From NCBI RefSeq assembly GCF_000003815.2, contig NC_049979.1, positions 9,688,764 to 9,752,763 of the forward strand: a stretch of DNA of 64,000 nt, written 5' to 3'. The notes below the pieces were generated by a model. It worked only from the letters and a program-made list of their open reading frames with translations. It ran no database searches and had not been told where the DNA came from. Both the position numbers and the translations under genes were made by a program. Of the stretch, positions 1,891 to 55,858 are shown in pieces. The stretch comes from Branchiostoma floridae. Its lineage: Eukaryota; Chordata; Leptocardii; Amphioxiformes; Branchiostomatidae. Position 1 is the first letter of the stretch, and each line of letters starts with the position of its first letter.

Positions 1891-1925
1891 GGGGCCTTAA
1901 TAAATACAAGCAAAACGTGCCCCTA

Positions 1926-14950: not shown

Positions 14951-15880
14951 ATAACACATTCGAATTACCAAAGTAGGGTAGAGTTATTCCGAGGCCCACC
15001 CACGTTCTCCGTCAGATGAGTGCCGGAGAGACGTGAAGATTTCACCGAAAACAAAAGTTTTCCGTTACGCTGGGGATGCGGTCGGTCTGTAGGCGAACTG
15101 TAGCAAGGCCAGGCGTCCCTTGAGCTCCCATTCTGGCAGAGCCCATAGTTTTTGTCCCCAGAGCTGCCACCTCTTTTTTAAGCTCGGCTTCCGCTGTGGC
15201 CTTCTCCATCTCCGCCTTTCGCTGTTCTAGGGCGGCCATCGCAGACTGAGGGCTGGAGTCCTCGGGCTCGGTGTGGTCCTTTGCCGCCGGCGGATCCTTC
15301 GAAATCCCCTGGCAGTGCTTAGTTATTATCATAGTTATTATTCATTATCCCGCCTTGTGACAAGACAGCGGTTCGCCACAACCGGAGCACTTCTTTACTC
15401 TTTTTGGGGTCCTCAGCATGGTTATGGTGGAAGAAGGAAAGGAAAAACAGAGGAGACTGCGGTGCAGCCTTCTCCCACGATCTGATGGCGGGAGTGAGTG
15501 GGGATCCCATCCCACATGTAGGTCGGACCCTGGGAGCGACTGCGCTGCATCTAATTAACAACTTCGATCCCGGGGGGCTAATCTCCAATCAGATCCTACG
15601 GTGCCATAACATAGTATCAAAGCTGGCCAAAGAGTACAGCCGGCCAAAGTGAGTCAAGCCGGCACATTTTAGAATACCACAATTATTTTGCTATAACAAC
15701 TACATTGTATTTGTTTATTTGTTTGTTTTCGTATTTGTGCATTTTTAACGGATGTGTAATCTACTAGGAGTGGTCAGTACAGGACGGCGACTCAGGTGAC
15801 CAGACTGGATGACGACTGTCAGAAGTGGAGAACCTTTATGGACAGACAGACTGCCCCTAAAGCTACCTAGCTATGGGACG
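14951..15880. other. Opposed open frames of unclear origin
   Basis: On the minus strand, 15332-15042 encodes a lysine/glutamate-rich stretch (AALEQRKAEMEKATAEAELK) likely to form a coiled coil. A short minus frame near 15420-15350 shows CSGCGEPLSCH, a possible zinc-binding motif. On the plus strand, an open frame ends SKLAKEYSRPK at a donor (CCAAA|GTGAGT) near 15650. It could splice to 15769-15870, which ends in DRQTAPKAT and a stop. Either could be a transposon remnant or a small gene. No family is recognised. Confidence 0.25.
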
Positions 15881-19760: not shown

Positions 19761-22043
19761 TATTTGAGTTGAGTTGAACTTCTTAATTTAAACGCTAACG
19801 ATATAGATGATCTGTTTCATCTAACATGTTCGCAGAGATAGTGTCATAATCATGGCTATCATGGGCCGGTAACGTTAAACGTTATGTGTAACGTTAGATC
19901 GGTACCAGGCAGTCTACAGCACGTTAGCTGACCTACTTTTTATCATTGCTTGTTCGGGTTCTATGAGGTAACGTTATAGCTAGTAAACTACTAAGAGGAT
20001 TCCAAACTACATGAACCAGCAAAGCACTTCTGTGTTATTATAGTGCCAACTCAAATCCTGCATGCGAACGGTGCCTTGTTTCTCACTGAAGCTGAGGCAC
20101 GCTGGTGACCTCGCTGCGGCATAACTATTTGACAAATCTTTTCACTTTTTGTGCTTTGTTGTGTTTTAGTCATACTTGTACTTTTTCATGATATTCACAT
20201 GATAAAGTAACGGTCAACACAGATGCAATTTAAGGCGCATCGACGCAAACCAACATACCACAGTCCAATACGATAACCACTTAATAGTCTTTAACAAGAA
20301 ATCCAGGTGTTGCATTGTCGTTGATGCCAATTTAGGGCATTTACAAGAAAAGTATCGCAAATACTCTTAATGTGTCATATTTATCCGAGTACCCGTAGAC
20401 CAGCTTTCTGTAGACGTCAGCGTTTACTCAGACAGACATAATTCATTTGTTACCATGCATTTGTGATACAAACGTACGGGATAACAATGTTTGTGCAGTT
20501 CGCACAGTCTACATAGCTTTGCCATTTTAAAACATGTATTGAAAATAATGCAGCTATGCAATCGCATATCTTCAGTTGTGTTTCATTCTAGGAATAAGGA
20601 ACAACTGAACAGAGAGAAGTGGGAGTCTGAAGTCAATTGAAAAGTTTTATTCGCAAGTTCTTCCCCAGTGGCTAATTGCAACACGAAACAATAACGTTAT
20701 ATAAATTTAGAAAAAAGTCTTATCATCTAAAGATCACACATGTTGTGGTTGAGGTATATGTCATGGAGCGGTTGACTCCCAGGGAGAGAACCTGAAAGCG
20801 AAGGTATTCATGTTTCAAACTACGGCAGGAATGTCCCGCTTCACCACCACCCACCCAATCCGTCAAAGAAGGATATAAGCTTTTATATTGACTTCGTACA
20901 GAGAGCCTCTGGCAATGATTGATAAACGAATTGAATAGATATGGTACTGATTTTTCACTTCATAACGCCACGAATCAGATATTTTTAGTTTCTACTTATT
21001 TGCTGTTGTTCAAAGTCGATGTCTCTAGTTGGTGATGTTTATGTTGATTGATGAACTCGGCAAGAATGCATTATGACCTTGTACTTCACAGATGCATCGG
21101 GATCTAGATCTGATAGTCATCACTGAAGAAAGTCACCACGACTCCAAGTGTCTTGAATCGATATGTTTATTTTAGGCTTCTTATCTCCCAAATTGTTGAC
21201 TCATTTCTCTAATGCATTTTAGTTTGTTCAACATACTTTCCACACATGCTGACAAAGGAATACACATCAAAAACATGAATAGTTAAATGTGACACACGTG
21301 ACACAAGGCAGATGTGCCTGAGCCGAACGCTGACGTGGTGCTTGTTTAAGTATCAGCTGTCACAAAGATGACAGGGGTGCAAGCAGAACGCGGTCTCTAT
21401 TTGTTGTAGAAACAAACAAAAGTAGGGTAAAGGTGAAATGGCCAGTGCTGTCCCATGTAGGTTATATAACTTCGCTAGTTTTGCCCGTAGATGTTTCATC
21501 ATCTCAAAATTGTATAACCGGTAGACTACCCCATGGCCTAACATACAAGGTCAGTATCTAGGGTCGATTTAATACTGCACAGGTGGCTTGAACGATGACG
21601 TAGCTCAAAAGACAGCGCACCATACCTTCCCCCAAAAGTCTAGCTAGCAGACACCTCAAGGTTATCCATCTTTTGAAATGATAGCCTGACGTAAAGGCTC
21701 ATTGCGTCCCCTCCGATAGACCAGAGACTTTGCTATTATCAAGGATCAAAACTTGGACGCCAGAACTCGATTTGGATCCCCCTGATCTTGTGGACGTGAA
21801 TTGCTGACCAATAGACCACAGCATGATTCTAATCTATTCTTAACGAATGTCATTTTTTGTAAAACTGTTTTATTATGGTTTGACAATGCTTAAACAACCA
21901 TATAAAAAGTCATATTACAATGAAGACAATGTCGTCATGATAACAGACTTAGCGCTGAAAACTGTATGTTTTAATTGTGATTTCTCTGTCTCGTTTCAGA
22001 CATCTGACGAATTCAGGTGCTGGGCAAAACGTTCTGCGCCGCC
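19761..22043. other. Upstream region of the Patched-like gene
   Basis: No coding sequence is recognised. A good acceptor (TCTCGTTTCAG|ACATC) at about 21999 lies 45 bases before the Patched-like start codon. This suggests a non-coding first exon somewhere in this interval. Confidence 0.4.
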
Positions 22044-25000
22044 ATGATGGAACATAGCTTCATTGAAAGATGGATGAGCAACGGTTTCAAAGAGTTTGGG
22101 CGGTTAATAGCCAAGCAACCACACGCCTTTCTCTTCGTCTCCCTGCTTGTGGCTGGAGGTCTGGGAGCAGGACTCTACTTCATAGACAACGAGAATTCTA
22201 TCGAGAAACTTTACACTCCCGACAGTGGGGCAGGGAAGGTGGAGAGGGATTACATTCAAGAACATTTCCCCATCAACGATTCGGAACACTTTCTGCCCTC
22301 TCGTCTGATCACATCGGGGCGCTATGCCGCCATCATCGTCAGAGGTTGTGGCGATCTAGCAAACAATGTGCTACACGAGTCAGTAGTGAATGCGGCTGTT
22401 TCCCTTCATAAAAACATCACGCAAATAGAGACGGAACATCATGGTTTGAACTTCACATCCGTCTGTGCTAGATGGGAATCAGAATGCGTTGTAACCGGTC
22501 TGGACTTTTTGGATTACATCGCGTCACAGGTGCCGAATGTTACGGTAGGATACCCGCTCCAGGGAACAATTTTCAGTGGTGCCGTCCTCGGCGGCGTGTC
22601 GGTAGATGACGGGACGGATACCATCCGGAAGGCGACGGCTTTCAAACTGATCTACCATCTAAGGTCGTCCCACGAAGAGGACGACGAGTCGAGCGAGGCA
22701 TGGGAGCGCGCGTTCCTCGGCTTCATGGCGACGTTTTCCTCGGATTCCATCGACGTGTCGTGGTCGACATCCCGCTCCCTGGAGACGGAGATCTCGGACC
22801 TGACCATCAGCTCCGTCCCTACGCTAGCGGCCTACACCGGCAGCATTCTGATGGCGTTCGCCATCCTGTCCTGCCTGATGATCGACCCGGTGCGCAGCAA
22901 GCCTTTCCTGGGCATGGTGGGCGTCCTGGGCGCGGGAATGGCCGTCCTGGCGACCATCGGCCTGATGTCCTACTGTGGGGTCAAGTTCAACACACTGGTG
23001 GCCGCCATGCCTTTCCTGGTGATAGGTCAGTACTGAGTACTCGTATTCTCCAGTTGTATCCCCTTCTTGATTTTGACTGTCATCTGCTATTTTATGTTAT
23101 TTTGAGCAAAAGACGCTCATAAGCAAGAGTGCTTCTTGTCTAATGACCAATAAATGAATGTGAATAAAACAAAACAAAGTACGTAATCTCCAAGCAAAAG
23201 CTTCACTAATGACGTGGTTCCATCCTTCCCACACCCACTCAGGTGTCGGCGTGGACAACATGTTCATCCTGCTAGCGGCGTGGAGGAAGACCAACCCGTG
23301 GGACAGCGTGCAGGACCGGTCAGCCAACACCTACGCCGAGGCCGGAGTGTCCATCACCATCACGACACTGACCAACGCCTTAGCTTTCGCCGTCGGTGCC
23401 ATCACCAGCTTCCCGGGCGTCCGCGTGTTCTGTATGTACAGCGGCATAGCTATCGTGTTTGCCTACTTGTTTCAGCTTAATTTCTTTGGCGCGTGTATGA
23501 TATATGACGGTTACCGAGAGAAGCAGAACCGACATTTCCTGACATGTATGACGGTCCCCATACCCTCTAAAGACGACCAGTCCGGTTGTTGCCAACAGTC
23601 GTGCTGCAGGGGCGACGCAAAGGCGGGAGTCAAAGATCACAATGACCACCTCATTATGTTATTCTTCAAAAAGTATTACGGACCTTTCATGACAAATGTG
23701 TGGGTAAAAGTAGTGGTCATGATTATGTTTGTCGGGTACCTGGGTGTCGCGATTTGGGGGTGCGTCCAGCTGAGGGAGGGCGTCCAGCTCAGTAAGCTTG
23801 CCGGCGACGCATCGTACGTTGCCCGCTTCCTCGAGCAGGACGATAGCTACTTTAGCGAGTATGACGTCAGGGTCGCTGTGATTGTAAAGGAAGAACTAGA
23901 CTACTGGGACCCTGACGTGCAGGATAGAGTTGATAACATGTTAGCGGGGTTTGAGGACACGGCGTTCACTTGTGGCAAGAACGAGTCTGAATCATGGTTA
24001 CGCGATTTCTTGGCATATGCAGACCTGATCTGTCTCAATCCCTATCTACCAGCGTTGAACCCAGCTAACAAAACGTCCTTCATAGAATGCCTTAGAGACC
24101 GCTTTCTTTCAATACCTGAATTCAAAAGATATGCTCACGACATGTTGTTCAATGAAAACGGTACTGAAATCATAGCCAGTCGTTTTTTCGTTCAGACAAA
24201 GGAAATTGACGGGACTTTAAAAGAGAAAAACATGATGATAAAGATGAGGGATTTAGCATCCCAATCATCGATTGAAGCAATTGTTTACCATCCGTCGTTC
24301 GTTTATTACGACCAGTACATCGCCATTCTACCCAACACCTTGCAAAACTTAGGTATCGCCACGGCGGCCATGTTGGTTGTTTCTCTCTTCCTCATGCCCC
24401 ATCCAGTCAATGCCGTCTGGGTCACTCTCGCCATTGCGTCCATCTGCACGGGGGTGCTCGGGTTCATGACGCTCTGGTCCGTCAATCTAGACAGCGTTTC
24501 CATGATTAATATCATCATGTGCATCGGCTTTTCCGTCGACTTTTCGGCTCACATAGTATACTCCTTTGTCACGGCTGAGGAAAGTGGTCGGGACGCCAGA
24601 GCCGTGCATGCGCTGTACAGTCTTGGCGTACCGATCCTCCAGGGGTCGTTATCAACCATTCTGGGCATAGCAGCGCTGAGCACGGCTCCCTCGTACGGCT
24701 TCCGCACCTTCTTCAAAACGGTGTTTCTGGTCATCGTGTTCGGCCTCGTGCACGGTATTGTCTTCCTTCCCGTCATGCTCTCCTGCCTAGGTCCGCAAGG
24801 CGCGGTGAACCTGAAGGAGAACAGGAGCGACGAGGCCCAAGCTGGCCATTTTAGTACCTCCAATCGTAACGCTGAAGACGGTGGTAACGTCGTGCTACAA
24901 GATGTAAAAGTAGAGGGCAGGAAAGATAACCCACTGATGACTCTCAGTATGAAGGTCTGGCTCGACCACTTAAATGAGGAAAATGGACTGAAAGACAAGG

Positions 25001-25077
25001 GCACGACGGAAAGTCAATTAAATCTGGCCGCGAACGCAGAAATGAGCGTTTCAACGGAGGAAGATTCAAAATTATAG
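22044..25077 (+). CDS. Patched domain-containing protein (PTCHD3-like)
   Basis: Two coding exons, 22044-23025 and 23243-25077, join in phase 1 to give 938 residues. The start was chosen at 22044 because GCCGCCATGATGG is an ideal initiation context; an in-frame ATG lies 27 bases upstream. Residues ~24-47 form the first membrane helix and a large extracellular loop follows. Residues ~258-400 form the sterol-sensing-domain helices. The RND signature GVGVDN spans the exon junction at ~328, and a second GFSVDF-type motif is at ~756 in the second helix bundle. TM7 is near 480. This duplicated RND layout is that of Patched-related transporters and receptors, in which the aspartates are thought to relay ions during lipid transport. 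A Cys-rich CCQQSCC lies in an inner loop and the last ~130 residues are a charged tail. AATAAA signals at about 25511 and 26366 may end the mRNA. Ligand and pathway are unknown. Confidence 0.9.
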
Positions 25078-29473: not shown

Positions 29474-32400
29474 ATGGATGGAAGTCGGGGAAGATTTCTC
29501 CTGGTGGCCGCCATAGGGCTGGTGGCGGGCGTCGTTCTCGGGGTGGTCATCGGCTATTTCTCCCGCCAGCCCGGCTCAGCCGCGCCCTGGGCGGAGGAGC
29601 TGGTCCGGGATGGGGACGCCTCGGCGGGCCGGAGGGTGCAGGAGGAGATACTGCCCGAGAACATCGAAGAAAATCTCAGGTAACGTCAAGACTTTGAGGG
29701 ATAATCATTATCATCGTTTGGTCTATAGATGTTCCATTATTACCCTGGCCTCTGCTCAAGTGTGTGTCCATATCTTCACATGTTTCTATTTCAGGACTCT
29801 TTCAGTATAATAAATTGGCCATGGGAGCTCCCAGATTTTTGGTGTCGATTGCGGTTTCTTGAAATGTCTACGGTAAATCATTCGGGGGCAAATCTTTCTA
29901 AAAAAAGGCCTCTAGTGCTGAATCATTTCCCCCTGAACAGAGTACGTCAACATTGATACTTTATACAAACACATCTCAAGCTACATATTTAACATAACTA
30001 AGAAACGAGAAGAAGCCGAACAAATGTACTAGAATAGTTTTAGAATTTATGTTTTAGATTAGTCTTAGAAACCATGTTTACTGCATTACTACCCTTTGTA
30101 TCTATATGCCTGTACTTAGCCCGATAGGGCATGAATGTGCAATAAAGGCGTATTACACATTATATTGAACAGCCCCACCCGTAATTAACGGTAGAGGACT
30201 GGATCGATTGTAAACATGCAATCTATATTTTGCTTGTAATAAACGAATAATGTATTACAAGAGGTGTCTCGTGACAAATTGTTAGAAGTTGAGACCACGT
30301 GGAGGCGCTTTTGATAGGTCGTTCCTTATTGTCCCACATACCCATGTACCGTGTATAGAAATTTCTCAACCAGCCGTTTCGTGTTAAAGTGGCCCACCAT
30401 TTCATACTGTGGCGATGACAAGTTGTAAATCTTTGCTACACATCTGAAGCCGCGCCCCACATGCATGCCATTGTAATTTGTATTCATTGTAGGCACAGGT
30501 GTCACGGTGGCCTCGTGTTTAGAGTTGTTCCCATGATGTGCATCTTGTAAAGTCACGTGCACCCTAAACCAATTTCCCCAATCGACTCAGGCGTAAATAA
30601 GAACCTACTAGCCTTTGTGTTTGATGTGAGCTATACGTATCGAAATGTGTGTTGGGGGTTCTTCGCGGGTGTTAGTAGATCGAAAACTTGTCCGGATATG
30701 CAGCTTGTATTCTTCAGTGCTCCAAGCAGAGGTTGAGTCGCGGAGATATAATAGTAGTCGGGAAAACTACAAATCTACTACCCTCCTTAAAGAGGAGCGC
30801 GCCTGTAGATTCCCCGACTACTACTATATCTCCGCGACTCAACATCTGCTTGGAGCCTTGGTGAGTAGTGTAAATGCAGAAATGTTCGCGGTGGATTAAT
30901 GTTCGCGGTTTTCGCGGTGACCACTTCACCGCGAACTTAAAACCACCGCGAACATTTTTCTATCATGGTATTAGACTGCAGTGTATGGTGTTACCGCGAA
31001 CTTAAATCCACCGCGAAAAGTCCCTTTTCCCGCTACCGCGAAATTAAATCCCCGCGAACTTAAATGCATTTACAGTATTCTTCAGCGCAGCTCCTGGTGT
31101 GTTTAAAGACCCTTTAAACGGTATGCACCACAAATACACTTAAGCGACCACGCCTTTGGCCATTAGACCTTGAGCAATATTCCATGCTACGTTTAGTACA
31201 TGTACTGTAGCCTTCACCCAAACTAGCTACCAGCCTACAGTGGGATATTTACACACCTGATAAGCGTTGGCAGCAGCTAGGTTACTGTGCCAAGTCATTT
31301 ATCTAAATTACCCGTGTCAAGTAGTAAGAAACAGGGGGCGGTTCAGTTTGGTAAACACTTTCCTGATGAGCCGCATTCTCTGTAGCTGTCTATGCGCCTT
31401 TATTTCACACTCTCTCACTCTTAAAGGCAACCTAAGCAATATTACAGCGTCAAAGTGGAAATATTCTGAATAAGGCAATCTGCATGATATTGACATTTAC
31501 TGCATGATATTGACATTTACTGCACTGTATTCTCACATTTACATCATAATTTGATACTTTGAGCGGCTAAAAACAGCCCAGAGACAAGTTGCACGAGGAC
31601 ATTCTTTATTATTGTACCCCCCCCCCCCCCCCCAAAAAAATAAGGACTTGATCTGGAATCCTTGTGCAACTCATTCCCGCGCTGTTTTTAACGGCTCAAT
31701 TTATGAAATAATTATGTAAATGTACTAAAATAGTGCATTAGATGTCAATATTATACAGACTGCCTTATTCAGAATATTTCCACTTTTAACAATGTGATAT
31801 TGCTTAGGTTGCCTTTAATTTCCTCGTTTTGCTAATATTCATCAGCGTACATAAGAGGAAAAAGAAATCGAAAACCTCATACCCTCGAAGTATTTGTCTT
31901 CAAATTTCTTAACAAAATGTAACACCGTGCCACGTCCCTTTCACACACTACTAGTAGAAACCCTAGTACTCTCCATCCTCGGCTGCCTGACTTCATCATC
32001 AGCAACATTCATTTCCGGCACGCCTGTAGCCTGGATACCAGACTGTTTACAGGGCCTATACAGCCCGAATCCTCGGCTCTAGTGCCAACGTGGCCCTATG
32101 GTAATTCTACAGTAGGTCCCCTCAGTTTTGCACGATAGATGTTATTGAGATCGGACCGGTGTCTGGTATCCAGGCTAGTAGGCCTGCGGCACAAGTTTGG
32201 ACCGGGCCGGCCACCCCAGCCTAGACTGGAGTCCAGCCTTGTTTAGCTTTAGTCCCCTACCCGCCAACATTTGGGAGCGGACTAAAGCGAATAAGACTGT
32301 ACTCCAGGCTAACTCCAGCCTTCAGGATGTTATCATGCTGTTTCAGTAGTTAATATAAAGGGTTCCACATTACAGTACTGAGTTTCTTTGATGATTTGCA

Positions 32401-35400
32401 GATCGAAGAAATTGGTCAAGTTTTTAACCTTTTAAGGCATATAGTGATTACGGAAATTGAGTGGGAGATACAAAGGGAGGGAATATCTTGTGTAGGTGAA
32501 TATGAGTATCAGCTGTTATAATTGCACGCTCGTTACAAAAACTCGAGATGGCAGATTAGTAGTAGATATTATAATAGTCAGTATTATATCAATGGTTAAG
32601 CTTCTACTGACTGCAGTCCTATCCCTGAGGATATTCGGAGTAGCATTATCTTGTCTGCCTCCTACACACTGCACGCCAATTCAAGATACGAAAACTAGCA
32701 TTCAAACTATAACTTTATTCATAATCACATTGACGACACAAAAATATTCTCAGCATATTTCATGGTTGGTTTGTATTTTCAAACGTGAATCTCAGTTGCC
32801 ATTGTACACTGCACGGTGTATAACATTGAAGTGTCTGAGAACTTCCGAAGATCATTCCTACTTACATCAAGTATAGAAAAGCGAAACCTTGTCTGGCTTC
32901 ATAAGTAAAGTCACAAGTGTATTGTTGCACCTCTATAGCTCTAGAGTTGTAATATTCATCACCTGTGGTGTTATATAAAGGTTGTAAATTAGTCTGCCAC
33001 TCAGAATGTGTTTACGATGTTCCAAGCAGGTGGTGACGCAGATCCAACATTTCTTAAATGACTGATACAGGAGGCTTATAATCAGACTGGTTTGTATGAA
33101 AATTTCTAAGGCACAAGAAATTCAATGTCCTGTATCCGATGATCGTCATGAAAAGACGGTTTGTAGGTAGGGATTGTCTTTCTGCAACTTTTTTCAGTCA
33201 GATGTCAAATCGAAATTTTACATCCCTTGCAAGCACCACAGTCGCAAAGACTAGGGTCGGCAGGTTTTGCTAGAATCAGTACTCCGTCTCAATTTCTGTC
33301 TCAGGAAATGTAACGTAAACGTGATCAGAAATATCTGTGTTAGACGAAACAGAGTCTAAGTCCGACACGTGTCCGTTTTGAGGTTCTGTTTCCTCTTTCC
33401 GTTCCTCTGCATTTTCTGTCTCAGGTAATGTCACGTAGAAGTGGTCAGAAATGTCGTCTACGATCGACACAACACTGTCTGACACTTGTCCGTTTTGACG
33501 TTCCGTTTCCTCTTTCCGTTTCTCTACATTTTCTGTCTCAGGCAATGTCACGTAGAAGTGGTCCGAAATGTCGTCTGCGATTGACACAACACAGTGTGAC
33601 ACTTGTCCGTTTTGACGTTTTGTCTCTTGTGTGTGTTCTTCAACATCATCCGTCCCAGGAAACGTCACATATGTGTGGTCAGAGTAGTCTTCTGTGTCTG
33701 ACGAACCGGTTGCTATATCTGACGCTTCTACGCTCTTTTTTCCTCGCTCTCTTTGCTGTTCTTCGGCATTTTCTGTCCCTGGAAACGTGATATAGGTATG
33801 ATCAGAGCAGTCTTCTGCATCTGACGAATCTGTTGCTATTTCTGACGCTTGTCCATTCTTTTTTCCTGTTTCTCTTTGCTGTTCTTCAGCATTTTCTGTT
33901 GCAGGAAACGTGATATAGGTATGATCAGAGTAGTCTTCTGCGTCTGACGAATCTAAGGCTATATCTGACGCTTGTCCATTCTTTTTTCCTGTTTCTCTTT
34001 GCTGTTCTTCAGCATTTTCCTCCCCAGGAAACGTTACGTAGGTGTGATCAGAACTGTCCTCAGAGGTGGACAAATCTCTTCCTGTTTTTCCGTCAGCATT
34101 TTCCTCCCCAGGAAAGGTTATATAGTCGTTGTCTGACAAATCATTAGCACATGCAGACGTAGATGCAGAGTTCCTGTCTTCTGGTTTGCTCTGACTTTTT
34201 TTGCCCCCTTCTTCAACCCCAGTGCCTTCTCCCGGAGAAAGGTTGGGGAGCGTCATATAGTCATGGTCTGAATCGCTGTCGTCATCATGTCGTTTGGTGC
34301 TTTCTGAAGCTTTTGTGACCGAATCCGCGACGGGTCTCTCGTTGGCATAATGCCCGCCGTCAGAAACAGCATTGTCCAAAGATTTAGTTGCCTCACGGCT
34401 GTTCAGCCCCACAGAGTCTTTGTCGTTGTCATAATGTCCGCTTGCTTGTGCTTGAGCATGAACGTCTGCAAGGACGGTTAATACCGTACTCTTGGCTTTG
34501 CGCCTGTCCTCTGTCGCTCTTCTCTTAGCCAGTCTCTTCTGAATGCGGCGCCGCCGGGCATGTTCGGCCTTGGCAAGGGAAAATGTCTTCCTTGTTTTTT
34601 TACTAACCAACTTGTGAGGGATTGTCCTGTGCGAGCTATCATCATCGGAGAACTGGTCGTCGTAATCGTATTGATTCGTATTTGCTCCGTCTGTGTCCGA
34701 AAACTGGTCGTCGTTTTCGTATTGGTTCCTATTTGCTCCGTCTGTGTCCGAAAACTGGTCGTCGTTTTCGTATTGGTTCCTATTTGCTCCGTCTGTGTCC
34801 GAAAACTGGTCGTCGTTTTCGTAATGTACTCTTGCGCCGCCAGTATCTGAAAACTGGTCGTCGTTTTCGTAGGTGACTCCTCTGGCCGAGTCCGTGTCTG
34901 AGAACTGGTCATCGTTCTCGTAGTGTCTGTTTGCAGCATCCCTTTGTCCATCGGCGTTGTCCTGCTGTCGGACCGCTTTACACTTTCTCACACAGAAAGC
35001 TATCACTCCAGCAATAACAGAACAGCCAAGAAAAGATGCTAGTCCAACAAGGGTGAGATGTATCGCTGACAGTCCAAAACCAGGACCAGTTGCGACCTCC
35101 TTGCTCTCTACTTGTGTCGTGGTATCCCCAACCGTAGTTTGGGACTGAGACGTGTACGTAGTCGTTCCTGTGCTTGTCTCGTGTGTTGCGTTCTTGAGTA
35201 GTTCTCCTGGAAATCCAGCGACAGGAAGCATGGTGGATGCACCTGGGTCATTAGAATGTTCATACCTCACTGGGCAAGAATACGTACTACGTTCCATTAT
35301 GTGGTTTGGTGCTGGGATTTGCGAAGTGGAGTGGCACCTTCTCCATGGTTCGAATTCATGTTCTGTGCCGGCTGAGCCTTTAGTCACGTTAGAGGTACAC

Positions 35401-38400
35401 CTCAGATCGTCCCGCCGAATCCACCTGAGTCTCTTGGGTAGTCTAGTGACAGGATGTGCACAGGTGATGTGCCACTGCAAGTGGTTGTTCATTGTCATCC
35501 ATCTTTTCATCTCTCGCAGCCTGCAGTCGCACAGGATCCCGTTTTGAGCCAAAATCAGACTTAAGATGTGCTTAAGCTCTCCAATTTCAATGATTGACAT
35601 TATAGGATTATAAGTCATTATGAGCTTTAGGGGCTGAGTTGTCTGATCTGTCCCCCGAGGGATGCTGGAAAGGCAATTTTTATTCAGTGTCAGCTTACGC
35701 AGTACGGTGAGCCCGACAAACGCCGCGCCATCAATGTAGTGTAGTCGGTTATTATCCAAGTCCAGGTCTTCGAGCTTGGCCAGTCCCCTGAAAGTCTCGG
35801 CCTCTAAGCGGCTGATTTTGTTCCCAACCAGGGAGAGTTCCAGCAGATTCGTCAAGGTTTGAAATGACCCTGGTTGGATAGTCATAACCTGGCTTCCCTG
35901 TATGATTAACGCCGTCAGCGATTCGAGACGAGTAAAGTCCCCCGTCACGATCTTCGGGATATTCTGATGCGAGACCATGAATCGTTCCAGACTTGTTGGT
36001 AACGGTTTGGGAATGGAGCGGAAAGAACAGACTTCATCATAGCAAGTGAGCCTGGTAATGTTTCCATTGTGCATGCTATAGTACGTCGGACAACAGCACT
36101 TCAGGTTCGGGTAGGAAGCTGTGCAACCTAGTCCACTCCATGCCAGAAATATGACCAAACTAAGCAGTCTCGAGTGAGCCATGTCAGAGTCGCGCCGTTC
36201 TACGAAGACGCCCGAGTAAAGTCTTTTGCTATATCTTAGACACTCACCTACAGAGTCCAGAAAACATGAAGAGTACACGAGGTTCCTTCTGTCTTTTTCT
36301 TACAGCCAGGTGCTGAGAAAACCATACCAATGTCCGTGTCAAATCTCTCCAACGTCTTGGCAGAGCGGACAGGGCGGTTTGGGATCCAGAAACTCGGCCT
36401 CCGCCCTTCTGGCTGCCTATGTGTTTACCAGCACTTTTTCCACAGCCGTTTTCCAGTCAGAAGTCTTCTGAAATGAAAAATACCTGCTCGCACGTAGTCT
36501 GTGTGGATGAATAGTTATAACCGCGGCGTGGGAACTAATAATAACCGTTTGCAGCTGAATTGAATATTTATAGAAACTGCTCGATCGGATTATTTTGATT
36601 TTTATACCCAAAGAAGTCACGTAGCAATGCCAAACCACTGCCGAAAGGCACGGGTTGATATAACACAACTAACAGTACCAATTAAAGTCCATTTTGGACA
36701 GGTACACATATGTCAAGGTTTTATTATAGGTCTAGTTCTTAATGGCGAATAAAGAAAAAAAATACAAGCATGATCCGTAGTCATGACTGTCCTTTATACA
36801 CAGCAATGAAATAGGCTTGCATCCAGCGACACAACAGAATAAGGAGGTTGAAGATGACGGATAACATACATGTCGCGAACTATGGTGTGTTATCTAGCTT
36901 TGACTTGCAATTTACGTCATATATTTGCTTGTTTTTGGAAACGGATGAAAAAATTATGAACACGCGGGTATCATTCACATGGCCTTGCATGGCCTACATG
37001 TAGAGTAATACACAGTTAGTAATGGGGTTAGTTCTTCAGGTGAGTTGTAGTCTGACGACAGTGTCCGTACGTCCCCAGGAGGCTGACCTCCGTGCCGCAC
37101 ATCGCGGGAAGGGAGATGGACCTGGGACAGGCGGAGGATCTGCGGGACCGCTGGCTGCAGTACGGGCTGGACTCCGCGCGCCTGACCCCGTACGACATCC
37201 TGCTGTCCTACCCCAGCAGTGACGAAAACAGGTAATTTTGTAGCCTGTATAAGGAGCACATATCGATGTTTCACATTGTGACATCCATATATACCTGGAT
37301 ACCAGACCCCAGCCCGAACTCATAGATATTTTTGAGATCGGGCAGGGGCCTGGTATCCAGACTAGTAACTTTGCAGCTGTCCGGTGTTTCTTCACGGTAC
37401 TGCATGATGCTAACCTGGTATCCAGTCTACCGTGGATTCTCCAGGCTCTATTCGGGGCCGATGAAGCCATCTGCCGCCGGGGTAATACCTCGCACTCGGT
37501 AGGAGTTAAGTTAGACTTTTACATGGCACGTAATTAAACTCTGCTCGGTGAAAATCCTACGTCGTGAAAATCCTACCGGGTGCGAACGATTACTCCGGCC
37601 GCAGAGAGATTTATCTGTCCTGTAGAGAGCCTGGCCAAGCCACTACCAGGCTAGGTACTAGGTTAGCATGATACAAGGGGGTTTATGTATTACAGATCGC
37701 TGTTATAAAGCCCATGTCACACCTAGCCGACTATGGCCTCCCGTCCTTCTCCAGACTATGGTTGGGAGTTAGTCGTGAGCAATGCCATCTGCCTTTAAAG
37801 TCGTCTTCTCTAGTCGACGATATACTTTAGAAAATTGGGAAAGTCATGTTGTGCTTTGATGCGACAAGTGAAGCAAACTGAAGCTAGAATAGGATAGATT
37901 CCGGGCTACTCACAACCAAGGGGGTTAAAATCACAGCCCAGCGCCGACCTTGGTTGGGGAGAGGTCGGGAGCAAAGGGTGTGTGATAGTGGCTTAACCTG
38001 TCTCCTCCAGTCCCAGCCGGGTGACGCTGATGGAGGCTGACGGGACGGTAGTCATCCAGTCCCAGGTGGAGGAGGCTCCACTGGACCAATGGCAAGACGA
38101 CCCGAACATCGTCCCGCCATTCAACGCCTACTCCGGCTCTGGAGACGTCGAGGTATGAAACGATTCTAACAGGATTGATGTAGTCTCTTCCAATCTCTCT
38201 TTTCTTGCTAAAAATACTAGTAGTAGAATTTGACATAATGAGGTAAAATGATTTAGCACAAAAGCAAAGTACAATGCCAGGCTACCGAAAATAATTTCAT
38301 GAGGTTGGTAAAGTATAGGATATAGGAGAATTCTTGTACACAACCAGGATGTACTTACTTGCATACTGCAAGCGCCACCTACATCGGCTACATATAGCGG

Positions 38401-44400: not shown

Positions 44401-47400
44401 TATGAAATGTAACAAGAGCCCCTTTTCGCTTGTTAAGTCTCCGTCGCTGATAAATCAGACCCCAAATTTAGAACGGTGTTGTGTCGAAAGGGGACACCTG
44501 TTATTAGCGTTGGCTAAACGTCGTGTCCGGAACCTTTTCTCCCAAGCCATACTTTCCCATTGCCCGCAGATCGGTACGTGATCATGGGGAACCACAGGGA
44601 CGCCTGGGTGTTTGGGTCCGTGGATCCTTCCAGCGGAACTGCAGTACAGGAGGAGGTTGCTAGGGCGTTTGGAAAACTGAAGCAAGAAGGTACATGTGCG
44701 GATGGCATCCCTACTTGTACTATTCTTTTAACATACGCAGTCATTTCTCTAGTTTCGTGTGGTTGACTGGCTAATTTTTGTTGCTTGAGTTATTTTTAGG
44801 TTTTATCGAAAACGACTACATTTCCTACTGACAGATCTACAGACTCTTTTTATCTTATGTGCTGGTACAATCAATTGTACAGAAATCTGACAGTGTTTTT
44901 TCTGCGCTTTTACTATATAATATATATATTCACATACAAAGATTGGAAATGTTCCTTAATGATCAAGTCATGGGGATTGGCTAGCGAGGCAAAAAAACGC
45001 CTCATTTCATATCAAAAGAACCTTAGGGTGATTTTGTCTCAAACACCTTTGTTTGGTGAGTTGCTTACACTAAAATCCTTCATTTTGAGAAGGTTGGCGC
45101 CCTCGTCGGAGCCTTGTGTTTGCCAGCTGGGGTGCTGAGGAGTACGGCCTGATCGGCTCCACGGAGTGGGTGGAGGAGTACAGCAAAGTACTGCAGGAAC
45201 GGGCTGTGGCCTATCTCAACGTGGATATAGCTGCTCTTGGTAAGTGACCGAACTGTCGAAAGTTTTTATAGGCTAGTTTTGAAGCTCATATTCAAGCCCT
45301 CAGTATTACTCAACTGGCTACAATAGTATGGGGACTGTGGTTGGTATGTAACAGTACCAAGGCTAGCACTGAAGCCCTCAGTAGTTCTGGTTACTATTGT
45401 ATATATGGGGGCTGCGGTTGGTATACACCAATAGTTCAGCACCAAGGCCAGTACTGAAGCCCTCAGTAGTACTGGTTACTACAGCATGGGGACTGTGGCT
45501 GGTATGCACTAATAGTTCAGCGCCAAGGCTAGTACTGAAACCCTCAGTGGTACTGGTTACCATAGTATGGCGACTGTGATTGGTATGCACCAATAGTTCA
45601 GCACCAAGACTAGTACTGAAGTCCTCAGTAGTACTGGTTACTATAGTATGGAGACTGTGGCGACCAGTATTTCAGCACCAAGGCTAGTAATGAAGTCAGT
45701 AGTACTGGTTACTATAGAATGTGGAATGTGGTTTGTATGCACCAGTACTCTAGCACCAAGGTTAGTACTGAAGCCAGTAGTACTGATCACTATAATATGA
45801 AGACTGGGTTTGGTATATACCAGTTGTTCAGTACCAAGGCTAGTACTGAAGCCCTCAGTAGCACTGGCTACTATAGTATGGCGACAGTTGTATATGTACC
45901 AGTAGTTCAGTAACAAGGCTGGTACTGAAGCCCTTTGTAGTACTTTTTACTATAGCATGTGGACTGTGGTTGGTATACACCAATAGTTCAGCACCAAGGC
46001 CAGTACTGAAGCCCTCGGTAGTACTGGTTACTATTGTATGGGAGCCGTGGTTGATATGTACCACTAGTTCCGCACCAAAGCTAGTACTGAATTTGAAGCC
46101 ATTAGTACTGGTAACTATAGTATGGGGACTGTGGTTTGTATGCACTAATATTTCCGCACCAAGGCCAGTACTGAAGCCCTCAGTAGTAATGGTTACTATA
46201 GTATAATGGAGACATTGGTTGGTATGTACCTGTGGTTCGGTACCAGAGTTAATATGTTGATTTATCTGCCCCTGCTCACATTTTTTCAACAGGTAACTAC
46301 ACGTTCAGGAGCAGTGCGAGTCCCGCTATGTTCCAGTCTGTATTTGAAGCCACGAAAAAGGTAACCTCCATTCCCCTTCACGGCAGGTTTCTGTAGTAAA
46401 AATTATACTTTGTAACCCAAAGACAGCTGATCACTTACGTCTATTGCTTACATGTACTTTCATGTTGACGCATACGGATTTCTTACTTACTTTTGTCCCA
46501 CATATGAGGAAAACATTCCAAAATAATGAACTAAGTGGAAACGTCATAGCCTTTTGTTGCCATGATATTTGAAGTCACATCAACACAAACAGTAGGGCAC
46601 TTTGACCTCGGTTTGGCTCCTCTCAACAGATTTCAACCGAGGAATGTCATGTACATGCCATTTACAGAAGGATTCACGTATCGTTAGTCACGTTATATTG
46701 TCTCCCGTTGCTGCTAGGTACCGGACCCGGGCGTCAACCCCGCTGGCAGTAGCTACAGCTCCCTCTATGACTCATGGGCAGCCAAGGTTCCCAAGGACGA
46801 GGGAGACCCTAACTCACTGCCAAAGTGAGGGGCATGACATTCTCTTATAATGTTGTCGGAAATGGAATTGATACGGTACTACTTTAGAAAAATCGTATTT
46901 GCAAGCCTGTAATTTCACCATCTAGTCATCCGCAAATGAACGGACGGCTTACAGAAGAGGGGAAAAAGTAACATCCACTAACATTCCCTGTAACCTGTTG
47001 TATGGTACAAACTTATGTAAGGTAATATTATACATTTCGACAGGTTCAAAACTAGCCGGAAAAACCACGAGTCGTACAAAACAATTACTCATGTACGCCC
47101 GCTCTTCCTAACAGCATTGGCCAGCTCGGGTCGGGAAGTGACTACACGCCGTTCTTCCAGCATCTCGGCATCTCGTCTATAGACTTCCGCTTTATCTGCG
47201 ACCCGGTAACGTACTTAACTAAATCTGTAGAGAAGTTGTTTTTTCATTCTTTTATTCACCGTACCTTAAGAAGATTAAAAACAATGTAACTTTGATGACA
47301 ACTTCTCAGCGACCACCTGTCCAAATCCACCGCTTTTTTCCGGTCCCGGGTGGTCGTCTTGGGCAGGTTTGACTGTACTTACCTACATGCATATAATAAG

Positions 47401-50400
47401 TACTCGTAATACTGCACACAGATATACACTTGAGTGAGACCTTCAGTTGCCATAGGGGGGTAAGACAGGGATGTATTCTATCCCCTTTTTTATTTGCATT
47501 TTATATAAGCGACTTAGATAAGCATCTGGAACAGAATGGATGTAGAGGAATTCAGGTTGGTGACACTGAAATTTTAAGTCTAATGTTTGCAGACGATCTT
47601 GCACTTTGCTCAGACTCAGTGGTGGGCCTACAGCGGGTTTTGAATGCCCTTAATTACCTCCATGAAATGTCATGGAATGGAGGTTATATTTACCTCCATG
47701 AAATGTCATGGAATGGAGGTTATATTTTCTGTTATGTGTCTCTGTCTGTGTAGATGATTACTCAAGAACGGCTGGATGGATTGGTTTCATACTTGTTGTG
47801 TTGGTGGGGTGTGATGAAAGCTCGAATCGATGAGATCTTGGGAGCCGTATCTGTCGTTATAATCGATGTAATAATATAAAAAATCACCCCTATATTTGAG
47901 ATATATTGGTACAGGCATCGTGCTGTATGTGTTTGTTAATGGGCTTAGCTCCAAGCAGATAGTGAGGTGACAGCTGTTTGGGGAACCCCCAGTAGTTTTA
48001 TTTATGTCTGCTTAGGACTGTTTGAAATATTTGTAACAGTTGGCACAGTAGTTACCTCCATGAAATGTCATGGAGGTTATATTTTCTGTTATGTGTCTCT
48101 GTGTACAAGATTACTCAAGAACGGCTGGATGGATTGGTTTCATACTTGTTGTGTTGGTGGGCTGTGATGAAAGCTCGAATCGATATGATTTTGGGCGCCG
48201 TATCTGTCGTTATAATCGATGTAATAATATCAGAAATCACCCCTATATCTGCGATATATTGGAACAGGCATCGTGCTTTAAGTGTTTGTTAATGGGCTTA
48301 GCTCCAAGCAGATAGTGAGGTGATTTGTATGACAGCTGTTTGGGGAACCCCGAGTTTTTTGAATATGATAATTAGTTTTATTTATGTCTGCTTAGGATAT
48401 CATGGAGATGTGAAGCGTAAGTATAATTGTAAGAAGTTGAGGTACATTTAACGGTAATGCTTAACAGGTATGGATGTCTCACATACTGTACTGCTGATTT
48501 GAGTGACATGGTGATTAAAATGCCATTAGGTCCTCTCATCTTAGATGGGTTGGGTGTCAGAAGTTTTATGGGCGATACAGATGTTCTGATTTCGTTGCGA
48601 TAAGGGACAGTTGTTAGTTGTCTCTTTCGTAGCCAATGGTACTTGTTTTTTAGCAGACGGGGTTGGCGCCAAGTATTCATCTTACAGTTGATGTAGGGCT
48701 ATCAGAGGAAAGTGTGCATCTCGTTTTTGTACCGTGTGAACAGCTGATGTTATGACATATTGGTGGAAAATCAAATCACCATCTGACTAAAGTTGGCCAC
48801 ATCCCTTCTTCTTTCTGAGTTTCCCAACTTCCTCCCACCACACCGCTCTGAGGCACATAGTCGAACCTCAATAATGCTGACAACCTTAGACAGTTTAAAT
48901 GCCAAACATCAAGCTTAAGGAACACCACGCTACCATATGCCGCCGACCTCTTAAACGCACATTACACAATTAAGTGTCACATTTTAATAATTACTAATCA
49001 GATGGACATCCTCTGTGTCATTAAATAAATACACCACTACTTTCCCATAACATTTATAACCATTACTCTCAAATACAACCGACTATAAACATACATACCA
49101 TCCACAAAAAAGCAATAAATATTTCATGGAGGTATGAGGTCCCCGAACTCTAGTTTCTGTTATGTGTCTCTGTCTGTGTAGATGATTACTCAAGAACGGC
49201 TGGATGGATTGGTTTCATACTTGTTGTGTTGGTGGGGTGTGATAAAAGCTCGAATCGATGAGATTTTGGGCGCTGTATCTGTCGTTATAATCGATGTAAT
49301 AATATCAGAAATCACCCCTATATCTGCGATATATTGGTACAGGCATCGTGGTTTCCCTCTTTGTTAATCACCTTATCTCCAAGCAGGTGGTGAGGTGATT
49401 TGTTTCGCCAGTGATAGCCATGAACATATGTTTTTATTTTATCAGTTGACAACAACTGTTTGGGGGAAACGATAGCCTCGACTCAAGAACGGCTGGGTGG
49501 ATTGGTTTCATACTTGATGTGTTGGTGGGGTGTGATGATAGCCCAGGAAGTGATTAGATTTTGGGCCTCATATCTGTCGATATAATTGATGTAATAATAT
49601 AAGAAATCATCCCTATATCTGCGATATATTGGAACAGTCATCGTGGTTTCCCTCTTTGTTAATCACCTTATCTCCAAGCAGATGGTGAGGTGATTTGTTT
49701 CGCCAGTGATAGCCATGAACATATCTTTTTTTTGGATCAGTTGACAACAACTGTTTGGGGGGAAACGATAGCCTCGACTCAAGAACGGCTGGGTGGATTG
49801 GTTTCATACTTGATGTGTTGGTGGGGTGTGATGATAGCTGGAAGTGATTAGATTTTGGGCCTCATATCTGTCGATATAATCGATGTAATAATATAAGAAA
49901 TCACCCCTATATCTGCGATATACAGTTGACATCGTAGTGCATTTATTTGCAAGTTGCCAGTACTATCATAACGTGATAATGTAAACATCATAAAGATTCC
50001 CCACACCTGTTGCATGTTACCATAGTGCCCATGTGATAACTATCCACACAACTAGTAGAAATAACACGAATACCATTACATACAAGTCATAATCAACAAA
50101 CATAAAATCGACAAAAACACTGAATATTTTATGGAGGTATGAGGTCGCCGAACTCTAGTTCCTATTGCGATAGATGTAAATTAGCAGTAAATCTGGCGAA
50201 GACGAAGGTCATGGTCTTTAGAAAGGGAGGTAAGTTGCGGAAAAGTGAAAAGTGGTTCTATGCAGGAAGCAGGGTAGAAGTGGTGAATACGTATAAATAT
50301 CTAGGGATAACCGTATCTTCAAGTGGAGGATGGTTTAGGGCGCAGGAAACGTTAGCTGGACAGGCGTCCAAGGCCTTGTTCATAATGAAAAAGAATATTG

Positions 50401-53270: not shown

Positions 53271-54550
53271 TGGCGCATGATCTAACTTGAGGAAGTTGTA
53301 GTTTGTCGTCCATGCCTACAAGAGCACTTAAAAGGTTCTTTACTTGTGATTGGGTAAAGATAGGTATGGACACGTCACCACCACTGTATTAAAGTAAATA
53401 AAAACACATGGACACACATAATGCCTGCAAGCCACATGCTGATTCAATCTGTTTCATCGAAAGCACCATAGAATTGATCTGAAGCACGCATGGGTCCAGT
53501 ACGGTACAATCAACCCCGCCCCTTGGCTCTAACCATATTATGGTGATGCGACGCTATCCGTCAGATACATGTATATGGTTTGATTATAGTGTTTGTATAT
53601 GGTCATTCCACCTTCAAGGGTTTGAAAATAATACATAGTAACATTCCTGGTTGCGCTTACCGAGGCTTCTGTAGGATTATTATGTAGTATAGGCAAACAA
53701 TATAGACATTGTGATTGTATTTTGCTTTTACAAGAGATTAAACCATTGATCATACACACCTACTTCTGTATCCTAATGGAACGAACCAGTTTCATTTTTG
53801 TTACAAACTGAACGCCAAATAAGTGATTAGAATTAAAGCGTGATGAGAAAGAGGATGCGCGGTAAAATGGGACGAAAGTGTTTTGATGGTCCAGATTTGA
53901 GTTCACATTTCTCATAATCTTTGCGAAATGGCATTTAATACTAACATGTTACATGGCTGGAAAGCTTAAAAAGTGATGGTTTTTGGTGAAAATTGATTTG
54001 ATCATGACTTGAGGGTGCGAATCCTCAAATTGACATCCCAAATAAACTGAGTATGCAAGTTTACATTTCCATGTCTGTCATGAGATGTGCGACACTTCTC
54101 CAATAGTTACCTTTACCCATACCTCAATCCAGGGACAGTAATTACCTACAGACCGCGGTGCCTCATCCTGCAAAATATCTATTAAATTACATCCCACGAC
54201 ATTACACTTACATGCATATGCTATTGACTATGGCAACAACCAATACACGTATAGCGCATGACGCAGCATGTGCTACTATGGTAACAGCCTGAATATTTCA
54301 CATATTCTTTTTTTAAGTAAAAAATGTATTAGAGACGTGTTGCTTTGATTGACACTTCAATTTGCCCAGAACCAATTAAGCAGTCGAGATTCGTCGTAAT
54401 AGGATGAGTGACGCAGGACGTGCATTATATATGCTGTCTCTTGCCTTCCCTATCTTAGCAAGACCGACCCGCATATGCCCACGCTCAGTGCTCCTCAAAT
54501 CCCGCCGAAGTTTACCTCTCGCGTCGCAGAAGATCAGAATTAGCTCGACT
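53271..54550. other. Intergenic, between the carboxypeptidase and GPCR genes
   Basis: The first ~130 bases are the 3' UTR of the carboxypeptidase gene. From about 54060 the DNA shares blocks with 56940-57400 beyond the GPCR (see that entry). An in-frame ATG at 54404 extends the GPCR frame by 49 codons, but the extension lacks a recognisable feature. Confidence 0.5.
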
Positions 54551-55858
54551 ATGTTTAACAACAGCTCTGACTCTCCGTTCGCCCCCGGAGGGACGTCACC
54601 ATTTGGGAAGTTCGACGGACAAGAGTCCTGTCTCCTGCGGCACCTACAAAATACGACTCTGTTCCAAGGCTACGCCCAGGCGCAGGAAGCCTGCTCCATG
54701 TACGCGAATACCGAGGAGTTGGGAACAGCGACCGCCGTCATCTCGTGGCTGTTGGGGCTTATCATTATCACGACCAACACCGCTGTGATCTGGGGAATCA
54801 TCAGAACAAGAGAACTCCACAAAGCGCTCTACTTTTACATGGCAAATCTTGCCGTTGCCGACTTGGTAGGAGGCATTGGGCTTCTGTATCGAACAGTAGA
54901 CCAGGTGGACTTGATGAAAATGCACAGGATGATGAATATTGTAACGTTTCTGATATATAGTCAAGTGATGTCGGCGTCAGCCCTGTCCCTACTATCAGTT
55001 TACTCCTATGTTGCTGTAAGGCATCATGTATACTTCTACAGCCATGCTGGCACTGCCAAGCGTGATGCACTTTTAGCTATTTTCTTCTCCTGGCTTGTTC
55101 TGTCCTTGATTTTTTTCTCACCCAGTATGGGTTGGAACTGTCTAGATATGCTCACAACAAACTGCCTGATGTTTTACCACGTAGTCTTCGTTGGTCTTGT
55201 AGCCACTATAGTCATCGTTCTGATCAGTACCATCCTGTTCACGAATATTAGCGTATTGCTAGGTTTGAAACAACGGCAAAAGAGAAGGTTCGGACCGCAG
55301 CCACAAGACAATAATCAGGGACAAAATGCGACAGCGCAAGTGCAGCCTCGCAATGTCGCCCAAGACGAGGCACGACGAAAACTCCAGAGAAGTGTGCAAA
55401 AGGCGAGAACAGTCTTGATCTATGTGGTGGTCGCGTTCATCTCCTGGCTCTTGCCTCTTGTGCTCATCCCAATATGCCTGAGTTTCGAGGACGGGTGCGC
55501 AGCTATTTTTGGTCCTCATGCAAGGGCCGTTCTGATAACTGTAAACTCAGCAATCAATCCGTTTGCAAGCATCATTCGCACGCCAGACTTACGGAAGGGG
55601 ATCTGGCAAACTGTGGTGGATATCCGCCGGGTGATACGGGGAAACCGTGTGAATCCACAGGGCGAACAGCCCGGACCAGGGAATGCACCTGATCTACCGA
55701 GAGGAGCCGCACGGGACACCGAGCCGAGCAGACCAACACAACGACAGGACAGCTCATCGGCAGTACACAGCAAAAGTCTTGTCAACAAGGGTATGGTAGG
55801 GCCAAAAGCAGCATTCTCCACAAGAGAAAATAACGATATTGCTATTGTAGAAATCTAG
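54551..55858 (+). CDS. Class A (rhodopsin-like) GPCR, EDG/cannabinoid-type, atypical DRY and NPxxY
   Basis: Intronless 435-codon gene. ATG 54551 was chosen because it is followed by an N-glycosylation-rich extracellular start (MFNNSSDS, then QNTT). An upstream in-frame ATG at 54404 is possible. Seven membrane helices are visible. TM2 has NLAVADLVGG. TM3 ends in SVYSYVAVRH where most relatives have x-DRY. The second outer loop has MGWNCLDMLTTNC, the Cys arrangement of lysophospholipid (EDG) receptors. TM6 has SWLLP and TM7 has NSAINPFASI, with Ser for the Tyr of NPxxY. The third inner loop is long, Gln/Asn-rich and basic. A Pro/Ser-rich tail of ~75 residues ends in IAIVEI, which could be a PDZ ligand. 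Ligand unknown; G-protein coupling is uncertain because Arg3.50 is missing. AATAAA at about 56261 may end the mRNA. Confidence 0.88.
   Translation: MFNNSSDSPFAPGGTSPFGKFDGQESCLLRHLQNTTLFQGYAQAQEACSMYANTEELGTATAVISWLLGLIIITTNTAVIWGIIRTRELHKALYFYMANLAVADLVGGIGLLYRTVDQVDLMKMHRMMNIVTFLIYSQVMSASALSLLSVYSYVAVRHHVYFYSHAGTAKRDALLAIFFSWLVLSLIFFSPSMGWNCLDMLTTNCLMFYHVVFVGLVATIVIVLISTILFTNISVLLGLKQRQKRRFGPQPQDNNQGQNATAQVQPRNVAQDEARRKLQRSVQKARTVLIYVVVAFISWLLPLVLIPICLSFEDGCAAIFGPHARAVLITVNSAINPFASIIRTPDLRKGIWQTVVDIRRVIRGNRVNPQGEQPGPGNAPDLPRGAARDTEPSRPTQRQDSSSAVHSKSLVNKGMVGPKAAFSTRENNDIAIVEI

Follow-up and report, generated by a model that had tools for sequence, protein, structure and literature searches.

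Known receptors and docking proteins

Two leucine-rich repeat (LRR) receptors of lancelets have been described that bear on the gene analysed here, a single-frame gene for an LRR membrane receptor with an unusual tyrosine-repeat tail, located in a 64,000-nucleotide stretch of the Branchiostoma floridae genome (contig NC_049979.1, positions 9,688,764 to 9,752,763; hereafter the window). In the sections of the report considered here, the tail tyrosines of BbLcLRR from Branchiostoma belcheri are phosphorylated by Lck and the receptor is inhibitory in Jurkat cells; like the window gene, BbLcLRR is a lancelet LRR type-I receptor with several tail tyrosines, and its tyrosines are the substrate of a Src-family kinase (PMC8211107). 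It differs in being 699 amino acids long, with three mapped tail tyrosines (DDYATV, HDYSEV and HDYDDP) described as an immunoreceptor tyrosine-based inhibitory motif (ITIM) or ITIM-like, and the same sections, whose description rather than the MW390887 sequence was used for the comparison, mention no tyrosine array (PMC8211107). The other receptor, FrLRR, was recovered from a BbGrb2 immunoprecipitate and, according to the parts of the source used here, promotes phagocytosis and has no cytoplasmic tail (PMC10199209).

The EGFR tail and Grb2 form a condensate, and the membrane condensates of LAT or the EGFR tail with Grb2 share with the window gene a flexible membrane-bound tail with several Grb2 sites (PMC9181613, in excerpts); the consensus read by the Grb2 SH2 domain is pYxNx (PMC10279719, in excerpts). 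The lancelet family differs from LAT and the EGFR tail in carrying up to 19 similar tandem YxN sites on a receptor without a kinase domain, for which condensation would be hypothetical. The cytosolic repeat-site docking protein p130Cas also presents a single SH2 motif repeated in tandem along an extended flexible region; however, it is not membrane-bound and its motif is YxxP rather than YxN, with no YxxP in the window tail. LRR-immunoglobulin (LRRIG) receptors are said to have been recognized as expanded in amphioxus in the survey of amphioxus immune genes by Huang and colleagues in 2008; relatives and sisters of the window gene carry the immunoglobulin (Ig) domain, or its cysteines and tryptophan, and the window copy has lost half of it. 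In the open-access literature searched, a scope that excluded the main 2008 amphioxus survey, we found no description of a YxN-array tail and no occurrence of the string HYENDD, and the passages considered from two papers on amphioxus immune genes (PMC2575513, PMC5787515) do not mention such a tail.

Here we show that the window gene belongs to a lancelet family of LRR and LRR-Ig receptors, most of them with arrays of YxN sites in the tail. Judged from sequence, it is probably a receptor with a multivalent phosphotyrosine tail that would recruit several copies of Grb2, the array having been expanded gene by gene.

Two tyrosine blocks in the tail of the window gene

The open frame given in the preliminary description was confirmed: it lies on the minus strand at 33276..36182 and runs from an ATG at 36182 through 968 codons to a stop, and its stop-to-stop extent of 1007 codons far exceeds the longest frame, 199 codons, obtained when the window was shuffled by mononucleotide 50 times. 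The features of the gene and its flanks are as follows (positions in the window).

33276..36182, minus strand: LRR type-I membrane receptor with a tyrosine-repeat tail, single open frame, 968 amino acids (Pfam LRR_8, E 7.2e-20)
36117..36182, minus strand: predicted signal peptide, residues ~1-22 (hydropathy and start context; cleavage site inferred)
35391..36098, minus strand: LRR solenoid with N- and C-terminal caps, residues ~29-264 (Pfam; AlphaFold2)
35193..35390, minus strand: Ig-domain remnant and stalk, residues 265-330 (alignment; confidence below 50 in the structure model)
34992..35066, minus strand: predicted transmembrane helix, residues ~373-397 (hydropathy up to 2.3)
34641..34922, minus strand: family-1 array of six units, residues 421-514, YxN in five of six (sequence repeats)
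34479..34622, minus strand: basic patch, residues 521-568, net charge +16 (computed charge)
34335..34436, minus strand: two degenerate YxN sites, HYDND (Y584) and HYANE (Y612) (motif scan)
33303..34271, minus strand: family-2 block, residues 638-960, with nine SDxxY[MIV]T[FL]P modules that each match YxxPhi (motif scan)
36565..36572, minus strand: possible TATA box TATAAATA, 390 bp 5' of the ATG (pattern match only)
32714..32719, minus strand: possible poly(A) signal AATAAA, ~560 bp past the stop (pattern match only)

The start context has G at -3 and G at +4. With capped LRRs and, by hydropathy only, a signal peptide and a transmembrane helix, the protein has the make-up of an LRR type-I membrane receptor; in the Pfam search of all 968 residues, the LRRs were accompanied by just two matches to domains of unknown function, both below the cut-off. 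The candidate TATA box is one of three TATAAA occurrences within 1 kb upstream of the gene, and the candidate poly(A) signal is the only A[AT]TAAA in 32300-33290.

The tail of ~570 residues contains 21 tyrosines: six in family 1 (421, 438, 454, 471, 488 and 505, the sixth copy deviating from YxN as YDYD), two in degenerate family-1 sites, nine in family 2 (642, 687, 715, 756, 797, 838, 877, 916 and 956) and four others (507, 751, 833 and 968). At the DNA level, repetition is seen with periods of 51 bp and 117/123 bp. The preliminary description had located all six family-1 tyrosines and the basic patch correctly, and its nine family-2 modules all fit SDxxY[MIV]T[FL]P (9/9), with two of the tyrosines placed one residue too high (757 and 917 for 756 and 916); it had missed Y584 and Y612, which sit between the basic patch and family 2. 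It had also held that SH2-binding and YxxPhi motifs are matched only loosely, and here the motif scan gave a different answer. Seven of the 21 tyrosines match the Grb2-class YxN exactly, so that the tail, predicted to be membrane-bound, carries several YxN sites in the manner of the LAT and EGFR-tail scaffolds, and the nine family-2 tyrosines match YxxPhi exactly, as would be expected of AP-2 cargo.

The same scan found no ITIM ([SIVL]xYxx[IVL]), immunoreceptor tyrosine-based switch motif (ITSM; TxYxx[VI]), activation motif (ITAM; paired Yxx[LI]), YxxM, YxxP or NPxY in the window tail; a tail of the ITIM, ITAM, YxxM, YxxP or NPxY type was thus rejected, as the earlier remark that these are not classic ITIM/ITAM pairs had anticipated. 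Compared on its own, the tail gave nothing above the Pfam cut-off (best E 0.13) and no match among PDB sequences up to E 1, so a known domain from either source was rejected as well; its two Pfam matches up to E 10 are both far below the cut-off and neither is TIR, the domain expected of a Toll-like receptor.

A family of receptors with YxN arrays

A search of the genome assembly (513,431,437 bases in 431 contigs) with the window protein gave at least 104 matches, so that the idea of a lone receptor was rejected: the gene is a member of an LRR / LRR-Ig receptor family. The family size is a lower bound, with 37 stretches hand-picked from the 104 matches; they contain 48 matching open reading frames (ORFs), 49 with the window gene. 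Of these, 38 passed a filter requiring an ectodomain of more than 300 amino acids, a detected transmembrane segment and a tail of at least 60 amino acids, and 11 were dropped; three of the retained ORFs are shortened by a stop (L009, L019, L025_6799) and two run to the edge of the locus (L039, L038_7939). No relatives were found in viral contigs. In L019, L021, L022 and L040, the family matches consist of several open pieces separated by stops or frame breaks.

The 38 tails contain 531 tyrosines, of which 320 are in YxN, 110 in other YxxPhi sites and 101 in neither; shuffling predicts 49.3 YxN. The count per ORF spans 0 to 19 and lies above all 300 of the ORF's own shuffles in 29 of the 38. 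Four ORFs with 0 to 2 YxN (L037, L041, L044, L029_1546) are LRR receptors without an array and provide an internal contrast.

The motif also emerges when units are located by neither Y nor N. Anchoring on QF at +5/+6 picked out 174 units, spread over 26 ORFs. Position 0 is Y in 148 of them and position +2 is N in 165, compared with tail backgrounds of 4.2% Y and 8.9% N; several of the misses resemble, by eye, the DYQFL modules of L030 in another register. With E[VEA]A as a second anchor, 36 units were obtained, of which 27 have the Y and 27 have the N. In an alignment of 22 segments, which were chosen by YxN, no variation is seen at the three Y or at the E-N of the second and third units, and the N of unit one is conserved at 90% or more.

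In a midpoint-rooted tree of the 38 ectodomains, which includes some long branches, two deep groups of 11 and 27 sequences both contain YxN arrays. Near relatives differ in array size (7 YxN in the window gene, 2 in L009, 11 in L011, 5 in L010 and 11 each in L012 and L013), and two clusters combine members with differing YxN numbers: L025, L026 and L028 at C18:14.56-14.72 Mb, and L010, L012 and L013 at C10:17.33-17.35 Mb. Among 298 units from 28 ORFs, the linkers are more alike within genes than between genes (identity 0.39 and 0.17, respectively), which fits expansion inside each gene; core identity is 0.80 within and 0.78 between genes, values partly fixed by the choice of units by YxN. The differing paralogue counts and the linker identities thus support the earlier suggestion that one tyrosine site is present in many copies whose number is changed by repeat expansion.

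The order of the two blocks is constant: in all 14 of the 38 ORFs that have both (at least five YxN and at least two Y[IVM]x[LF]P), the YxN block lies ahead of the other. Beyond the array, 12 of the 15 tails compared have at least two YDN[DE] sites, and a single one is present in the window gene, L023 and L024. In L030 (1251-4259, minus strand), the second class shows a large expansion of its own: 20 of 30 tyrosines are in YxxPhi, mostly as DYQ[AFPS]L modules.

A different gene, at L047:1051-2334 on the minus strand (G000:C9:18330050-18331333), was the one candidate from a search for other YxN-array genes; its exon contains 12 YxN among 31 tyrosines (HYENDEE, HYDND, HYKND) as well as two YADL, which suggests that YxN arrays occur outside the LRR family; it has no Pfam match up to E 1, and no ectodomain was found, the upstream 4.5 kb being uninformative. 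The search also gave one hit on C12 and six on C10 near 3.0 Mb, two of which fall in L046, the sole stretch read there. At 1696-2589 (plus strand), L046 has an Asp-rich tandem repeat (DDMSQLSDTVDDMKRN) next to an exon that by eye is C-type-lectin-like; with no YxN, this locus was rejected as another type of YxN-array gene.

Selection on the repeat units

In the ten core codons of family-1 copies 1-5 of the window gene, the minimal changes comprise seven synonymous and no nonsynonymous ones, compared with four synonymous and 15 nonsynonymous in the linkers of the same copies (Fisher 5e-4), and in a neutral-relabelling control 8 of 20000 trials reach the observed core pattern. The copies are not fresh duplicates because the synonymous divergence (dS) between their cores is large, 1.3 to 2.9, over few sites. 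Across the 20 ORFs in which QF marks four or more units, the Y, E, N and D positions show 44 synonymous and 66 nonsynonymous changes (P 1.5e-4) and the linker positions 57 and 214 (P 0.89), the neutral synonymous share being assumed to equal 0.24; the N position alone has 12 synonymous and seven nonsynonymous changes. The codon patterns thus show purifying selection on the YxN core and none on the linkers. The family-1 peptide is held by selection, and support is weaker for family 2, in which the S, D, Y, T and P positions show eight synonymous and no nonsynonymous changes but were selected for being invariant. In 13 paralogue pairs, the ratio of nonsynonymous to synonymous rates (dN/dS) is 0.30-0.73 for the tail, a rough value because the alignments may place units of the repeats out of register, and 0.26-0.71 for the ectodomain.

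Candidate SH2 partners and a proposed model of receptor function

The same genome carries an SH2 exon pair of the Grb2 type, as identified by sequence similarity. An SH2 search gave 60 exon-wise matches, of which 12 small stretches were read. The exon L061:788-937 is identical to Grb2 in PDB at 42 of 49 residues (E 6e-25), its 25 best PDB matches are all Grb2, and it keeps the pYxN-reading tryptophan, which we take to be W121, the residue that makes Grb2 read pYxN. For the preceding exon, L058, the single-stretch score is 55 bits with Grb2, compared with 35 for the better of the SHP2 SH2 domains; by summed score, two-SH2 proteins rank higher. The genome also has SH2 exons that by eye look Src-family-like and SHP2-like.

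These components suggest a model in which ligand binding or clustering through the LRR ectodomain would bring in a Src-type kinase that would phosphorylate the transmembrane-proximal YxN array (seven sites in the window gene, up to 19 in paralogues). Grb2 or a Grb2-like adaptor could then dock through its SH2 domain on each pYxN, so that one receptor would gather many adaptors, and cross-linking of the adaptors (Grb2-Grb2, SOS, WASP) would lead to clustering and to Ras or actin output, for example in phagocytosis; a receptor of this family would be a candidate in the setting in which FrLRR and Grb2 were found together. The nine distal Y[IVM]T[LF]P sites would form a second class, acting as a YxxPhi endocytic signal when unphosphorylated and/or, when phosphorylated, as a site for a different SH2 protein. 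The gain would be set by the copy number of the array, which tandem duplication would alter separately in each gene.

A bolder extension, which we regard as a tentative possibility, is that lancelets possess at least a few dozen germline-diversified LRR / LRR-Ig receptors, each tuning its gain by the number of Grb2-binding YxN copies (2 to 19) and carrying a separately expanded YxxPhi-Pro block as a brake or internalisation signal. If the model is right, the receptor would be a receptor-borne counterpart of LAT with valency set by tandem-repeat mutation. The effect of site number on phosphotyrosine signalling is usually probed by engineering that number, and the lancelet paralogues, which carry one apparent Grb2 site in up to 19 copies, would allow a direct comparison of valency and gain. 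The tails further suggest that, on a large scale, the innate receptors of lancelets relied on a tail of the Grb2 type instead of the ITAM/ITIM type, which would bear on the origin of antigen-receptor signalling.

Several observations weigh against a Grb2-docking function. Asn at +2 is followed by acidic residues at +3/+4, and the suitability of such sites for Grb2 is presumed; FrLRR has no cytoplasmic tail and therefore, as far as the portions of its report used here go, lends no direct support (PMC10199209). The intragenic YxN sites are one ancestral motif copied many times, and therefore the matches are not independent. Nine of the 38 ORFs do not exceed their shuffles (L030, L025_6799, L029_6130, L009, L019, L041, L037, L044 and L029_1546). 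The sixth window copy (YDYD) breaks YxN and, when it is included, the core has seven synonymous and five nonsynonymous changes (P 0.005); moreover, the core was picked after being seen, and column shuffling reaches the pattern in 366 of 20000 trials. The Y position alone has 18 synonymous and 22 nonsynonymous changes over the 20 ORFs, that is, Y is occasionally lost. The family-2 signal is the weaker one, with 12 synonymous and 14 nonsynonymous changes in the nine-copy core (P 0.019 against neutrality), 8/6 in the core versus 11/30 in the spacer for six copies (Fisher 0.054) and a Fisher value of 0.12 for the nine-copy core against the six-copy spacer. Finally, L009, the nearest paralogue of the window gene, has lost most of its tail, and the ectodomain dN/dS between the two genes is raised (0.71). 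L009 is the one exception to an otherwise favourable outcome: the preliminary description had named loss of the tyrosines with retention of the rest as a refutation, and among the paralogues, the genes compared, the tyrosines are retained.

Alternative explanations

The tail might instead be devoted to trafficking, its YxxPhi modules and acidic serine clusters binding AP-2/AP-1 for fast internalisation and sorting, with tyrosine phosphorylation secondary. All nine family-2 sites are YxxPhi, and this class recurs in sister genes and makes up 20 of 30 tyrosines in L030. However, trafficking leaves the Asn at +2 of 165 of 174 units unexplained, L028, L033, L043 and L045 have YxN arrays yet not a single other YxxPhi, and the conserved Pro at +4 is no part of the YxxPhi motif; we therefore consider a pure trafficking tail unlikely. 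Less probable still is an inhibitory receptor whose phosphorylated family-2 sites recruit SHP- or SHIP-type phosphatases. BbLcLRR, on the evidence of the sections cited above, is a precedent, and SHP2-like SH2 exons named by eye occur in the genome, but the window tail lacks ITIM and ITSM, just Y877 and Y916 fit Y[IV]x[VILP], ITIM matches occur in two (L039, L041) of the 38 ORFs with a detected transmembrane segment among the 48 matching ORFs, and the BbLcLRR sites DDYATV, HDYSEV and HDYDDP, as given in those sections, fit neither the YxN nor the Y[IVM]T[LF]P pattern (PMC8211107).

Two further explanations dispense with phosphotyrosine. The acidic repeats could serve in ion binding, as a spacer or in CK2-type serine phosphorylation, the tyrosines being structural, given that the tail is very acidic (131 D+E among 569 residues) and the units contain SDTD; but [ST]xx[DE] sites stand at the shuffled level (25 versus 24.9), and the DTDG part varies between paralogues while Y-x-N stays, so that this use appears quite improbable. 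Ion loops like those of EF-hand or TSP3 were rejected specifically, as the DTDG part is not kept among the paralogues displayed. The lowest probability attaches to a functionless, neutral expansion of tandem repeats, with which the differing array lengths of close paralogues and the near-neutral ratio of linker changes would agree, but which is at odds with core changes in copies 1-5 that are exclusively synonymous, with the persistence of the motif across two deep clades and with a tail dN/dS that stays below 1 in all 13 pairs. Docking of several Grb2 copies remains our favoured reading of the tail.

The ectodomain and its Ig-domain remnant

LRRs are present in all ten relatives scanned. Three of these pass the Ig cut-off (L043, L045, L029_6130) and two match Ig below it (L034, L033), with no Ig at E 0.001 in L011, L028, L030, L037 and L041; in the alignment, eight of ten rows, including L011 and L028, have the Ig cysteines and tryptophan between the C-terminal LRR cap and the transmembrane segment. 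In the same ten-row alignment, only the second half of the Ig domain is left in the window gene and L009, so that the ectodomain, previously regarded as ordinary, is not quite so. An AlphaFold2 model built on 20 aligned sequences reached a predicted local distance difference test (pLDDT) score of 78.3 and a predicted template modelling (pTM) score of 0.73, with block means of 88-98 pLDDT for residues 41-260 and below 50 for residues 265-330; a single-sequence model reached a pLDDT of only 32.

An LRRIG receptor has LRRs followed by a complete Ig domain, and the window gene has half an Ig domain that is unfolded in the model and has no Pfam Ig match. By descent, it groups with LRR-Ig genes in the ectodomain tree. 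Because the sister genes keep the Ig domain, the window gene retains half of it and pLDDT is low at 265-330, an LRR-Ig receptor is the most likely ancestor of the gene, which would have lost the folded Ig domain.

Genomic neighbourhood

On the plus strand of the window, the terminal exon of a nearby gene, at 53028-53267, matches the transferrin-receptor-like dimerisation domain (E 1.5e-14) and 39185-39481 matches the PA domain below the cut-off; the segments at 29465, 44518 and 51550 gave no domain match. By eye, these segments resemble parts of a glutamate-carboxypeptidase-II-like gene, whose first intron may contain the LRR gene in antisense orientation.

Elsewhere in the window, a Patched / sterol-sensing-domain gene in two long frames occupies 22008-25074 (plus strand). 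Retroelement fragments were identified at 14125-14964 (minus strand; Pfam reverse transcriptase match), 47400-47750 (plus strand; by eye) and 50124-51290 (plus strand; zinc-binding reverse transcriptase domain below the cut-off). At 54380-55855 (plus strand), a rhodopsin-type G protein-coupled receptor is encoded in one long frame (7tm_1, E 5.9e-20).

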